Below are positions 59,208 to 64,000 of a stretch of 64,000 nt of DNA, one piece after another. Position 1 is the stretch's first letter, and every line of letters starts with the position of its first letter. The notes below the pieces were generated by a model. It saw only the letters and a list, made by a program, of their open reading frames with translations. It was not told where the DNA came from and did no database searches. The translations under genes and the position numbers were made by a program. Origin of the DNA: Halioglobus japonicus (GTDB lineage Bacteria > Pseudomonadota > Gammaproteobacteria > Pseudomonadales > Halieaceae); assembly GCF_001983995.1 (NCBI RefSeq), contig NZ_CP019450.1, positions 1,488,001 through 1,552,000 on the forward strand, given 5' to 3'.

Positions 59208-59561
59208 TCAAACGCTCAGTTCTTCACGGTGCGCCGCAACACGCAACATTGCTTCACTGGGCATCTGGCGAGTAACTTCGCCGCTGTCGCTTTCGACGAT
59301 CCGGATTCTCACCTGGTCACTGTTCTTAACCAGGTCGAACTGGAGAGTGTACGGGCGCATAACTCCGTTAATGCGCTGCAAGTCACGGTCGCTCAAGGGC
59401 GGGGGCTCTGTTCTCACAGCGAGCGCGCCATAGGCAGCACGATAAGATAGCGTGGCATCATCTATCATTCGCGCACCATAATGCCTGTTCTTACCCTCTG
59501 CCTGCGTGGTGCTGCGGCTGTTATCGGCGCTCATTGTCAATGGGCTGACTGTGATAGACAT
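59208..59561 (-). CDS. flaG: FlaG family flagellar protein
   Basis: 117-residue FlaG-family protein. The C-terminal 55 residues carry the family pattern LQFDLVKNSDQVRIRIVESDSGEVTRQMPSEAML, here in part; the N-terminal half is Ser/Thr-rich and variable. In other bacteria it influences filament length. A strong sigma-28 promoter stands 61 bp upstream, so it is a late flagellar gene. Confidence 0.82.
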   Translation of the reverse strand: MSITVSPLTMSADNSRSTTQAEGKNRHYGARMIDDATLSYRAAYGALAVRTEPPPLSDRDLQRINGVMRPYTLQFDLVKNSDQVRIRIVESDSGEVTRQMPSEAMLRVAAHREELSV

Positions 59562-59621: not shown

Positions 59622-59648
59622 CTATCGGCAGTAGAAATTTCGACTTTA
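59622..59648 (-). promoter_or_regulatory. sigma-28 (FliA) promoter of flaG
   Basis: Read on the minus strand: TAAAGTCG, 11 bp, GCCGATAG. Same spacing and near-identical boxes to the flgM promoter. It lies directly after the stop of the glycosyltransferase gene. Confidence 0.85.
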
Positions 59649-59659
59649 GTACCTTGCCT

Positions 59660-62600
59660 TCAGGCAGGGTCGTGCGCATAGCTTTCCCAAAGCGAGCGCA
59701 AGGCAGCGCGATCGAGGTCTTCACGGACAGTAAACACACCCGCGGTTTCTACCCGCTCCACCAATTCTAGAAACTCTAGGATCGGGTGGTACTGTTCACG
59801 GTTCCAGAAATCATGAATGAATATTCTGGTGCTTGCGAGGTTCGTATTGTGGCGAAGAGTATGCTCTATCGCTCGTGCCGCGCAGGCGACCCGGAAGCGT
59901 CCATCGACCAGAATCAGGTCGAAGGGTTGCTGTAGCTGATGAATGGCGCGACTGTAATCGACGAACAGCTCCGCAAATTTGTTTGAGGTAGGCATACCCC
60001 ACTCGCCGACCTCTCCGATATCGACTGCCACAAGGTGGCAGCGATCTCCCAGCTCGCGCGATAAGGCGTTAACCCACTGCGCATCGCTCTCAACGCCGTG
60101 GACTTCTAGACCAGCTGCTACTGCCCATACGGTGGAACCGCCAGAGCCAAACTCGAAGTAAGACTCGGCAGAAGACAGGCATCGGGCAAACAGCTCCCGT
60201 TCATCCCGCGACATATGTGGTGCGGTGGGGAGATTGAATTCTTTGTCCTGATTTTTGACAGTCCCGGGTCGCACAAAACTTTCCATGGGTGCCTGTTGCG
60301 GATTCTCCATGTGGGCAGCAGCGCGAATGTACCGCTGCGCGAGATCGGGATCAACGCGGTGGATTAACGATGCTGGTAAATCCCTAATATTGAACACATT
60401 GTGCAGTATAAAGCTCAGCGTCAGTAGCTGCTCGATCTGTAGCTTGGCAAGCCTGGCTTCACAGGGCACAAACAGCAAGTCCACCGAGTCTAACTGACTT
60501 GCCGGGAATGCGTTCTGTAGGCCATCGCAGGAACTCACTCGCTGTAAATCAGTAAGACAATGAAGGGTAAAGCCGGATTCCGCTGCGCTGGCGATCAAAT
60601 GAGATAGATCCGGTTGGTGCAGGTAGCGCGGTTGGGTGGGGCAGCGAATTTGTAGAAGCAGAGTAGATTCCAGTGTTTTGCGCCCGTTCTCGAGGATGGT
60701 GAGCGGGTTTCCCGAGGTGTCCAGAATGAGCCAGTCAAGTTGGTTCATGCCCTCAATATCATCCAGCGCCAACGTACTAATAGGCAGGGTCGTAAGTACC
60801 TGTGCAGGGAGTTGCATGGCGCCCGGCAGGGCGTCGGCGGGTAGCGGCTTGCACACACTGCTCCACGCTGGGTCGATGCACGCGTGCAACACACTTGGTT
60901 TGCCGTCACCCAGTACCGTGTGCTGGAACACTTGCACATTTTCGCGGGTGCCATCGTCGTCACTGCGTGGCACGCGGCTGGCGGGATCGAAGCCTATAAC
61001 CTGAAAGGCATTGGTGCTGGCCAGTGCGTCAAAACCTGGGTCAAGCAGTAGTTTGCTGCCGCAATCCATGACCACTATGTGGCGCTCCAGAGACCATACG
61101 AAGTCGGGCTGCACCATACTGTGATTGGGGTCTCTGGGGTTCGGCAGCTCGTTAATCCTGACGCTGGTGAACGTATCTTCATTGGCAAACTGCATTTGCC
61201 CGTTGGGGTTGAAAGACAAGGCAGCCGGGTTTTCGCCTGAGCAATGGCGTTGCCAGATTGCACGCAGCGCGCTATTCAGGTGACGCGCAAAGCGATGCGC
61301 GTCGCAGACGGGCGAGTGTTGCAATTGCTGTCGTAGTGAGCTGCGATAGTGCTCCAGTTTTGGGATATCATTGGCGAGGCCTATTGCGATTCGTCGATAG
61401 TCTTGCCAGTTTCTGGCCACAAGGTTAGCCAAGCCTGCATTGGTTAAGTGCGTTGCCGAGTGGCGCCCTGCGAAAGTAGGTCCAGGTAGAGTGATGACCG
61501 GCACGCCCATGAGTATGGCCTCGCAGGTCGTCAAACCTCCCGAGTAGGGCCAAGGGTCAAGCGCGATATCTACGCGATTGTAGGCCTCCAGAAGTTCAAC
61601 GTGCGGCGATCGACCCTCAATATGAATCCGGTGCTCGTCAATGCCATGGTGCTTGAACATAGCCCGGACCCGTCCACATAACTCTTCAGAGCCGAATTGA
61701 CTGCCCTTGAGGAACAATCGGCTGTGTTCCACAGCCAGCAACAGGCTGGCCCATTGTTCAATGAGCTGCGCATTGATTTTGGTGGGATTGTTGAAACACC
61801 CGAAAGTGATATACCCATTCTCGAGAGCTGGCACGGCGCCAATTGACGGGGTATCCCCTCTGGGGATGTAGCAAATGTAGTCATCGGGGAGACGTATCAG
61901 TTTCTCGGTGTAGAGGTGATCAACCCCTTCAGGCGTCTCTACGTGATCGGTGATCATGTAGTCCATGGCTGTCAGGCCAGTGGTATTGATTTGCCCGCCA
62001 ACCCATTTGACTTGCAACGGCGCGGGTCGCATGGCGATGGTCTTGCAGCGATTGCCCTCGGTATGTCCACACAGGTCGATAAGGATATCTATCCGGTCCT
62101 CTGCAATGCGTTCTGCCAACTCCTCGTCGCTGAGCCTGATGACGGATCGCCATTCATCCGAGCGACGCTGGATGAGCTGTGTGTAGGGATCACACTTGTC
62201 ATTCATGGTGTAACAGTAGAGCTCGATATCCTCCCTGGGCAGGAACTGAAGGCAGGAAGTGATCATCTGCCCCACTGGGTGAATTCGAAACCCTGCTGAA
62301 ATCATGCCAACTCTAATACGGCGATCAGGGTTCTGGTCGACCGTCGCGCGTGGCACGGGAGCTTCTGTCGCAAACAGTGCATCCCAGTTGAGATGGGCCT
62401 GGTGAATAGTCTCAGCGCTCAGATGGGGGTTATAGTGCATTAACAACAAGTGATCGCTTGCCAGAAGGAAATTGGTCGGGTCCAGTTCACGGCTCGCCTG
62501 GATCTTGTTTTCTGCGTCCTCAAAGCGTCCCAGGTTGTAATAGGCGTTGCCCAGGCTGTGCAGCAATATCGCGTTGTCCGGCTCCAGCGCACACAAGCTC

Positions 62601-63175
62601 TCCAGCAGTTCCGCAGCTTCGCCATAGCGAATGGCGCGCAGCAGCAAATTGGCCTTCTTCTTGAGAAAGTCACGATGCTCAGGGTTGCAAAGCAGCGCGT
62701 TATCCAGCAGCTCTATGGCCGCGTCATACTGACTCTTGTCGGCCAGCTCCCGGCAAAGCCATAGCAGCGAAGAAGCGAAATCAGGCTCTATTTCCAGGGC
62801 CCGATGCATCAGTTTGATGGCTTCTTCAGTTCTGCCCTGAGCATGATACACCCTGGCAAGGCTGTTGCAGACTTCGGGATCTTCGCCTTGCAAGCTCGCG
62901 GCGCGGTTCAGTGCGCGTTCAGCTTCATCCAGCGCTCCGTTGCGCAGGAGGGATGATCCCAGTGCTTTCCAGGCGAAACGGCTGTCCGGATAGTGGGCGG
63001 CAAACGACTCGGCCAATTCGAGGCAGGATTGGTTATCGCCGGCCTGATGCAGGTCTACGTACTGCTGCTGTTTCTCTATAGGCACCTGGCCAAAGGCGAC
63101 GTGGTTTACCTCTTGAAGCTTAAGGCGTGCCGATGGCGCGGAAAAAGGTGTGGCCTGGCTAGACTTTTTATGCAT
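59660..63175 (-). CDS. TPR / OGT-type (GT41) glycosyltransferase / methyltransferase fusion
   Basis: 1171-residue cytoplasmic multidomain enzyme just downstream of flagellin. Residues 35-240 form about six TPR repeats. Residues 285-645 are an OGT/SPINDLY-type GT41 catalytic region (GMISAGFRIHPVGQM, and the UDP-site stretch DPWPYSGGLTTCEAILMGVP at 540-559). Residues about 690-935 look like a divergent FkbM-type methyltransferase (VIGFDPAS, LDWLILDTSGNPLTIL). Residues about 1000-1165 are a second SAM-type Rossmann domain (YFEFGSGGSTVW, FDLILVDGRF). The position suggests O-glycosylation of flagellin Ser/Thr plus sugar methylation (inference). GAGG lies 10 nt before the start. Confidence 0.8.
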   Translation of the reverse strand: MHKKSSQATPFSAPSARLKLQEVNHVAFGQVPIEKQQQYVDLHQAGDNQSCLELAESFAAHYPDSRFAWKALGSSLLRNGALDEAERALNRAASLQGEDPEVCNSLARVYHAQGRTEEAIKLMHRALEIEPDFASSLLWLCRELADKSQYDAAIELLDNALLCNPEHRDFLKKKANLLLRAIRYGEAAELLESLCALEPDNAILLHSLGNAYYNLGRFEDAENKIQASRELDPTNFLLASDHLLLMHYNPHLSAETIHQAHLNWDALFATEAPVPRATVDQNPDRRIRVGMISAGFRIHPVGQMITSCLQFLPREDIELYCYTMNDKCDPYTQLIQRRSDEWRSVIRLSDEELAERIAEDRIDILIDLCGHTEGNRCKTIAMRPAPLQVKWVGGQINTTGLTAMDYMITDHVETPEGVDHLYTEKLIRLPDDYICYIPRGDTPSIGAVPALENGYITFGCFNNPTKINAQLIEQWASLLLAVEHSRLFLKGSQFGSEELCGRVRAMFKHHGIDEHRIHIEGRSPHVELLEAYNRVDIALDPWPYSGGLTTCEAILMGVPVITLPGPTFAGRHSATHLTNAGLANLVARNWQDYRRIAIGLANDIPKLEHYRSSLRQQLQHSPVCDAHRFARHLNSALRAIWQRHCSGENPAALSFNPNGQMQFANEDTFTSVRINELPNPRDPNHSMVQPDFVWSLERHIVVMDCGSKLLLDPGFDALASTNAFQVIGFDPASRVPRSDDDGTRENVQVFQHTVLGDGKPSVLHACIDPAWSSVCKPLPADALPGAMQLPAQVLTTLPISTLALDDIEGMNQLDWLILDTSGNPLTILENGRKTLESTLLLQIRCPTQPRYLHQPDLSHLIASAAESGFTLHCLTDLQRVSSCDGLQNAFPASQLDSVDLLFVPCEARLAKLQIEQLLTLSFILHNVFNIRDLPASLIHRVDPDLAQRYIRAAAHMENPQQAPMESFVRPGTVKNQDKEFNLPTAPHMSRDERELFARCLSSAESYFEFGSGGSTVWAVAAGLEVHGVESDAQWVNALSRELGDRCHLVAVDIGEVGEWGMPTSNKFAELFVDYSRAIHQLQQPFDLILVDGRFRVACAARAIEHTLRHNTNLASTRIFIHDFWNREQYHPILEFLELVERVETAGVFTVREDLDRAALRSLWESYAHDPA

Positions 63176-63286
63176 GTTCAGAATACCTCGGGATCATCGC
63201 GGTTTTACTTCAGTCTGCAGTGTAGGCAGGTTGAGCCGTTGCCAATGAGGTGAATAAGACGAACAAAAGGGCTCTTATCGTCAGAC

Positions 63287-63313
63287 AAAAAAAGCCCCCA
63301 ATAAAGGGGGCTT
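63287..63313 (-). terminator. rho-independent terminator upstream of the glycosyltransferase gene
   Basis: On the minus strand: perfect eight-base-pair stem AAGCCCCC / GGGGGCTT with a six-base loop, followed by seven T. It stands 112 bp before the glycosyltransferase start and so must end an upstream transcript. Confidence 0.85.
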
Positions 63314-63401
63314 GGAATTACGGGCGATTTCCCAGGGGAAGGAAAGATAGGAGCCCGTTGACCTAGATGGGTGCAGTTCGCGTCCCCACGCTGACTGCGA
63401 G
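63287..63401 (-). ncRNA. candidate small structured RNA between fliC and the glycosyltransferase
   Basis: A TATAGT -10 (63413-63408, minus strand) with a weak CTTTGA -35 17 bp upstream predicts a start near 63401. The transcript would fold into a nested hairpin (GCAGT/ACTGC outside GCGT/ACGC with a GGGG loop, 63373-63398) and a second long hairpin (ACGGGC/GCCCGT, 63320-63358), and end at the terminator 63287-63313. It has no ORF of note. It could also be a 5' attenuator for the glycosyltransferase gene or a processed 3' part of readthrough fliC message. No known RNA family recognised. Confidence 0.35.
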
Positions 63402-63491
63402 AATTCCACTATAGCCACACCTTGTCTTCTTCAAAGTGCGTATAAACAGAGGAAAAGTACGCTATTTCATCTTTATTATGATCCTACTCCC

Positions 63492-63515
63492 AAAAAACGC
63501 CCCATCAGGGGCGTT
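63492..63515 (-). terminator. rho-independent terminator of fliC
   Basis: On the minus strand: perfect stem AACGCCCC / GGGGCGTT with a TGAT loop and a run of six T, 20 bp after the flagellin stop codon. Confidence 0.9.
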
Positions 63516-63534
63516 GAGTGGAGCCGCGTGACCA

Positions 63535-64000
63535 CTATCCAAGCAGGCTGAGAACAGTCTGTGGGACCTGATTGGCCTGAGCGAGTACCGAGGTGCCTGC
63601 CTGTTGCAGGATCTGGGCTCGGGTCAGGTTTGATACTTCAACCGCATAGTCAGCGTCTTCGATTCGAGATCGTGCTGCAGACAGGTTGGTCGACGTCTCG
63701 GCGAGGTTGGTAATGGCTGATTCAAAGCGGTTCTGTGCTGCACCCAGTTCGGATCGTAATACGTCAACTTGAGTGAGCGCCGCGTCGAGCGTGGCAAGCG
63801 GGTCCGCGGTTAGCTGATTTCCCAGTGAAACCGTGCCATCAGTGGCTATTGTTGCTTCGTAGTAGGCGGTGTTACCGTCTGCGTCATTGCCACTCACCAC
63901 GTAACCGCTGCCGTCCGAATACGCGTAGACATTGGGGTTGGTAAGTGCAGTGATGCCGCTGACGTCAACGCTCACAACGTCATTGTCGGTAATCTGAGTC
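63535..64000 (-). CDS. fliC: FliC flagellin, C-terminal part (5' end beyond window)
   Basis: C-terminal 154 residues of flagellin, open to the window edge ([15 protein letters not shown]...). The D1/D0 region is unmistakable: [56 protein letters not shown], and the terminal [13 protein letters not shown] (each shown in part). The visible D2-D3 end is Gly/Asp/Thr-rich, giving Ser/Thr sites for glycosylation by the enzyme encoded downstream. A strong terminator follows. The promoter is outside the window. Confidence 0.94.

Follow-up and report, generated by a model that had tools for sequence, protein, structure and literature searches.

Can one protein, encoded beside flagellin, both attach a sugar to flagellin and methylate it? 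The question is raised by a gene in the 64,000-nucleotide stretch of Halioglobus japonicus DNA (the window). The frame at 59660-63175(-) is intact, starts with ATG, encodes 1171 aa and lies between fliC and flaG. In order, it carries TPR repeats, a GT41 glycosyltransferase domain, an FkbM-like domain (MID) and, at the C-terminus, a methyltransferase-like domain (CMT). The initial annotation had described TPR repeats, GT41 and two methyltransferase-like domains on one chain directly after flagellin, and this was confirmed: frame and domains were intact, and fliC preceded the gene on the same strand. GC content was 0.555 for the gene and 0.561 for the window, a comparison that gave no compositional sign of horizontal transfer. 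The features were as follows.

63535..64000, minus strand: 3' part of fliC, predicted substrate (domain match; the whole gene is L026:6536-8068, 510 aa)
63292..63313, minus strand: terminator-like hairpin in the fliC-fusion gap (shuffle comparison)
59660..63175, minus strand: TPR-GT41-MID-CMT fusion gene (open reading frame and domain matches)
62435..63079, minus strand: TPR superhelix, residues about 33-247 (Pfam TPR families; helices in the full-length model)
61226..62440, minus strand: GT41 glycosyltransferase domain, residues about 246-650 (PF13844; alignments to SPINDLY, 5djs and OGT)
60446..61090, minus strand: MID, FkbM-like fold with its pattern lost, residues about 696-910 (fold comparison; motif counts in relatives)
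60233..60325, minus strand: linker, residues about 951-981 (full-length model; MID-CMT spacing in relatives)
59663..60232, minus strand: CMT, methyltransferase-like with motifs intact, residues 982-1171 (3cvo match; alignments of relatives)
59208..59561, minus strand: flaG, next gene after the fusion gene (PF03646, E = 7.1e-8)

The glycosyltransferase half and its sugar donor

Pfam scores for TPR and GT41 were far over the cut-offs (PF13844, 166.6 bits vs. 25). The closest solved structures to the GT41 domain were plant SPINDLY (E = 1.4e-91) and 5djs (2.7e-89), which we take to be Thermobaculum OGT, then human OGT (3.9e-60). H299 and K466 aligned with one His and one Lys of human OGT, presumably the active-site residues H498 and K842. 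Among the matches listed, H299 was kept in 115 of 118 aligned GT41 domains (two of the three misses were gaps) and K466 in 118 of 118. By its PF13844 score and the aligned His and Lys, the protein is assigned from sequence to GT41. The TPR-GT41 architecture and both residues are shared with SPINDLY (7y4i, 8dtf), 5djs and human OGT, to which MID and CMT are additions.

Judged by domain content alone, the protein also has the layout of Caulobacter FlmG, N-terminal TPR followed by an O-glycosyltransferase. In the available text on FlmG, the N-terminal part binds flagellin and confers flagellin specificity, and the modification of flagellin is cytoplasmic; the word 'methyltransferase' does not occur in the main text (PMC7591256). 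Because FlmG offers this analogy, the TPR arm is the predicted flagellin-docking part.

The donor appears to differ, as FlmG needs pseudaminic acid according to the same text (PMC7591256), whereas NeuB (PF03102) had no match in the host genome, which is 99.98% complete. As a control, 9 of 14 genomes matched PF03102, Caulobacter included. A nonulosonic-acid donor of the FlmG type was rejected, and is excluded as far as a genome of this completeness allows. SPINDLY uses GDP-fucose, and this donor is also unlikely here, as GDP-mannose dehydratase (gmd) was not found at full score in the host genome (best 50.5 bits vs. 415). RmlB scored 474 bits, and dTDP-rhamnose is a possible donor; two nucleotide-sugar dehydrogenases were over cut-off, and a UDP-uronic sugar is likewise possible. 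GlcNAc derivatives have been suggested for enterobacterial flagellin islands in the portion of the paper available (PMC4875605).

The two methyltransferase-like domains

Both methyltransferase-like domains scored below their Pfam cut-offs, and other kinds of evidence were therefore required for both. Relatives were the 120 listed of 219 matches to query residues 650-1171, so the presence of CMT in them follows from the selection.

For MID, PF05050 reached 13.3 bits and did not pass its cut-off of 22.7; matches at E up to 1 were found in 6 of 22 loci (best 0.039), and one relative, P0053, passed at 26.3. A MID profile searched against PDB sequences returned nothing real (best E = 1.1), and fold comparison alone succeeded. 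It recovered an FkbM fold like that of 2py6 (Methylobacillus flagellatus), an FkbM methyltransferase, while Foldseek by itself placed other methyltransferases ahead. The motif K-x-D-x-[EQ]-G-x-E, which we take to be an FkbM feature, was found in 0 of 120 fusion relatives (matches listed), in contrast to 7 of 7 stand-alone MID homologues, which had it inside the MID match. At the FkbM positions of 122 MID rows (matches listed), Lys was present in 0, Gly in 2 and Glu in 0. Acidic positions were largely kept in the same 122 rows (Asp at 704 in 113, D730 in 121 and D819 in 119, matches listed). The short glycine loop of MID (no later Gly) was considered as proof of inactivity and dropped, since 6 of the 7 stand-alone homologues with an intact pattern share it, and the loop alone is thus no sign of a dead domain.

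The retained fold, the acids and the shared loop would suit a protein in which MID and CMT both work and place one methyl group each at two distinct positions, which is what the initial annotation implied. The pattern loss in all fused relatives listed, and the near-complete loss of the FkbM Lys, Gly and Glu, make this improbable. MID is probably inactive, a candidate family-wide pseudo-methyltransferase, and of the two methyltransferase-like domains CMT alone looks active. The domains are joined by a linker in which residues 958-978 had pLDDT <50 in the full-length predicted structure.

CMT matched 3cvo at E = 7.9e-16 as a single sequence and at 2.4e-25 by profile (the window plus 12 of the 21 loci described below); Methyltransf_24 was not passed (15.9 to 18.6 bits vs. 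26.3). 3cvo is an unfused relative of 202 aa, annotated 'methyltransferase-like protein of unknown function'. Two alignments, one with 13 rows of fused relatives and one with 39 proteins of mostly single-domain length (picked from 120 among the matches listed), gave a conserved set of E-F-G-x-G-x-S-T, a second acid, D-G-R-F-R and H-D-F-x-x-R. E1008, G1010, G1012, G1013, S1014, D1031, D1091, H1121, D1122 and R1126 were each found in 120 of 120 matches listed. Counts over residues 1008-1015 (n = 120 listed) were E 120, F 115, G 120, S 112, G 120, G 120, S 120 and T 117, and those for the second-strand acids (n = 120 listed) were E1029 119 and D1031 120. A glycine-rich loop with an acid after the second strand is the class I SAM arrangement, to which CMT is assigned from these motifs, and the set should fit a working SAM enzyme. 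Loss of SAM-binding residues from both domains, which the initial annotation had proposed to look for, was therefore not seen, as CMT kept its own in all 120 matches listed.

Low Pfam scores for MID and CMT, and the degenerate state of MID, would agree with a GT41 enzyme that acts on flagellin and has a non-catalytic C-terminal half, serving as a binding or regulatory extension. We hold this to be quite unlikely, since the glycine loop of CMT, its second acid and its H-D-x-x-x-R are strictly kept, in the 39 relatives of mostly single-domain length as well. PF21729, the family of plant glucuronoxylan methyltransferases, was considered as kin of CMT and not relied on, as matches were weak and inconsistent (3 of 13 CMT domains, at E = 0.042 or worse; 1 of 40 in a wider set, 0.088), and the family had no match in the host genome.

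The methyl target was approached through the company that CMT keeps. The CMT family was matched at a cut-off of E 1e-10 in 5 of 185 genomes of the class sample, host included. Apart from the host, three of the four (G431, G547 and G393) had CMT amid glycosyltransferase, polysaccharide-flippase, UDP-GlcNAc-epimerase or O-antigen-ligase genes; these are remote matches, given their E values of 7.5e-18 to 2.7e-12, and the ten glycan-type neighbours were chosen by eye, then confirmed with Pfam. The strongest match among the four, G475, was on a 5.6 kb contig. In 2 of the 120 matches listed (P0068 and P0082), of which Pfam covered P0068, a MID-insert-CMT chain lacked GT41 and carried other glycosyltransferases, of GT1/GT2 type. 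Both observations favor a sugar as the methyl target, the genomic company only weakly so over a protein substrate. They count against a scheme in which CMT methylates the flagellin polypeptide (e.g., Lys), with a FliB-like effect, and GT41 glycosylates flagellin independently. That scheme is in keeping with a CMT family that has no assigned function, and with the flagellin methylation islands with FliB described in the accessible part of PMC4875605; we consider it unlikely.

The preferred reading, to which we give a probability of about 0.6, is a cytoplasmic flagellin-modifying enzyme with a docking TPR arm, a sugar-adding GT41 domain, a degenerate MID and a CMT that O-methylates the sugar. 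Substrate, sugar, step order and methylation chemistry are those we infer. The TPR arm would bind FliC ahead of export, and GT41 would move a nucleotide-activated sugar onto Ser/Thr of the variable flagellin region, most likely of UDP or dTDP type (GlcNAc-type, uronic or rhamnose). MID would be retained as a spacer or binding platform, and CMT, with SAM, would O-methylate the added sugar. Sugar attachment to flagellin and a methylation step are therewith probable functions of this one protein. Points against the reading are that CMT falls below its Pfam cut-off and that 3cvo, its close solved relative, has no assigned function.

Flagellin neighborhood and distribution

Genome contigs were scanned with patterns of the fusion protein, and 21 related loci were found, which we assign to Halomonas kin (13), Brenneria (3), and Parahaliea, Zobellella, Mangrovibacter, Idiomarina and Alcaligenes (1 each). 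Adjacency was defined as a flagellin frame end <=250 bp from the fusion frame, using stop-to-stop frames (those of L013 overlap). By this measure flagellin adjoined the fusion gene in 21 of 21 loci, on the same strand in 20, and was divergent in L012. The count includes L018 (Salinicola tamaricis), where the fusion gene is broken over three frames, by sequencing error or as a pseudogene. The initial annotation's idea of a flagellin-modification machine is supported to the extent of a flagellin-linked TPR-GT41 protein whose chain also holds a plausible methyltransferase, in a gene order kept across genera; its pair of methyltransferases is reduced to CMT, which keeps its motifs, and a MID without the FkbM pattern.

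The fused form was found in 4 of 100 genomes sampled from the host's family, host included (two of them, G294 and G318, are probably records met already), and in 4 of 4 a same-strand flagellin lay at a distance of 2.9-3.5 kb from MID. Six further family genomes had a stand-alone MID homologue. A flagellin-family match (cut-off E 0.001) was present in 10 of 10 MID genomes (4 fused and 6 stand-alone) vs. 35 of 90 without MID (Fisher P = 1.8e-4, kinship ignored). Seven other genomes of the same genus had flagellin in two cases and MID in none, and in one of these two (L051) a flaG-like ORF, identified by eye, directly followed fliC with no fusion gene between. From the family and genus counts, the fused gene is sporadic yet tied to flagellin. 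In the order sample, 12 of 293 genomes matched MID, with G271 a stand-alone frame.

Stand-alone FkbM-type MID homologues of ~290 aa (L080:7574-8443, L081:8011-8889, L082:8185-9063 and L083:7930-8781) were found in flagellated relatives and keep the FkbM pattern. No flagellar genes were found within these four stretches, and efflux-type genes adjoin three of the homologues (by eye). The host genome has a second TPR-GT41 gene of 578 aa (G000:C1:3929233-3930969; L027:9234-10970, minus strand), which opens with a Cys-rich SEC-C-like stretch (by eye); its surroundings showed no flagellar gene.

A possible separation of the fusion gene from fliC by terminator-like hairpins counts against the preferred reading, but as 4 such sites were found vs. 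4.1 in shuffles, the evidence for the hairpin at 63292-63313 is weak. Some 170 bases of the window after fliC (63320-63490) are flanked by two terminator-like hairpins, and a small transcript from there is possible. Rfam gave nothing above threshold in the fliC-fusion gap; a single anti-hemB match (19.6 bits vs. 49.5) was taken as chance, and a non-coding RNA was rejected. Against the sigma-28 promoter consensus, no site at >=9/12 was found before the fusion gene, in 63176-63534 on the minus strand. One site (TAAA-N15-GCCGATAG, 11/12 matches) lies at 59622-59648(-), upstream of flaG and past the fusion stop. The interval from fliD to flaG showed no gene for sugar biosynthesis, which also counts against the preferred reading.

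Published fusions and an insertion slot

The initial annotation held that OGT-like enzymes and sugar methyltransferases are usually separate genes. Published fusions do not support this, and the fusion of GT41 and methyltransferase as such was already known, going by the accessible parts of two papers. Enterobacterial flagellin islands, in 194 strains, hold eleven GT41 enzyme types, all but GT41-11 also with methyltransferase domains (PMC4875605, 2016), and the Spy of Erwinia flag-3a is an 1127-aa protein with a methyltransferase domain beside fliC (PMC7526173, 2020). The present protein joins this group by sequence, with SPINDLY/GT41 and a methyltransferase on one chain, and the gene lies beside fliC in the window and beside flagellin in 21 of 21 loci. 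It differs in having MID and CMT, where the published enzymes, in the text available, have one methyltransferase type per protein (cd02440; pfam13649), and in fusing a degenerate FkbM-like domain, where FkbM enzymes are separate genes (PMC4875605, PMC7526173). Aminotransferase and acetyltransferase genes neighbor the Erwinia Spy gene in that text; none was seen at the fusion gene of the window. The available portions of both papers do not mention a degenerate FkbM-like domain or an insertion slot, and 'sulfotransferase' is absent from the main text of PMC4875605. In a literature that was mostly non-subscription, no experimental study of a GT41-methyltransferase fusion was found, and titles and abstract openings gave no mention of the slot or of a dead FkbM domain. 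The degenerate MID may be a novelty, and the slot with its linked sulfate and uronate genes is possibly another.

Domain order was TPR-GT41-MID-CMT in 101 of the 120 matches listed and the same with a MID-CMT gap >130 residues in 13. Among these 120, two of 868 and 860 aa lacked TPR, perhaps through truncation at a contig end, and two had two MID segments (in P0110, one split domain). With the two GT41-less proteins above, 15 of 120 matches listed had an extra stretch >130 residues between MID and CMT. Precomputed annotation called the insert a sulfotransferase or glycosyltransferase in 12 of the 15, all except P0088, P0100 and P0104. Pfam, applied to 5 of the 15, gave Sulfotransfer_4 in P0034, Sulfotransfer_3 in P0069, Glyco_trans_1_2 in P0064 and Glycos_transf_2 in P0068, the last family being below cut-off in P0100.

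ApsK-like (PAPS-forming) frames directly followed the fusion gene in 4 of 21 loci (L010, L016, L017 and L019), and NCBIfam, applied to L010, confirmed the assignment there. L016 and L017 have inserts of sulfotransferase size (paired by organism name with P0034 and P0067), and L010 and L019 do not, so an ApsK-like gene was present at 2 of 2 sulfotransferase-insert loci vs. 2 of 19 others. These neighbors suggest sulfated flagellin glycans in halophiles. UDP-glucose-dehydrogenase-like genes lay directly past the fusion gene in L012, L013, L014 and L022 (4 of 21 loci), about two independent cases, as three of the four are Brenneria; L012 and L013 were over the nucleotide-sugar-dehydrogenase subfamily cut-off and under that of the UDP-glucose equivalog. 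L016 had a weaker, distant match of this kind. Neither type of neighbor was found at the window's own fusion gene.

A broader, tentative reading, which we put somewhat below even odds, is that these proteins are modular one-chain assembly lines for flagellin glycans, with a TPR-GT41 part for flagellin docking and the glycan start, a dead FkbM platform, an exchangeable slot, a CMT methyl cap and neighboring genes that feed the chemistry. A sulfotransferase or second glycosyltransferase would occupy the exchangeable site after the MID platform, and PAPS or UDP-glucuronate-type neighbor genes would supply the variant chemistry. The slot variants would then predict sulfated flagellin, and the reading as a whole sulfated, glucuronylated and methyl-capped flagellins. 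If the preferred reading is true, one protein would combine O-glycosylation and methylation in the cytoplasm in compact form, and the flagellin glycan of many marine and halophilic bacteria would be partly readable from the domain order of a single gene.
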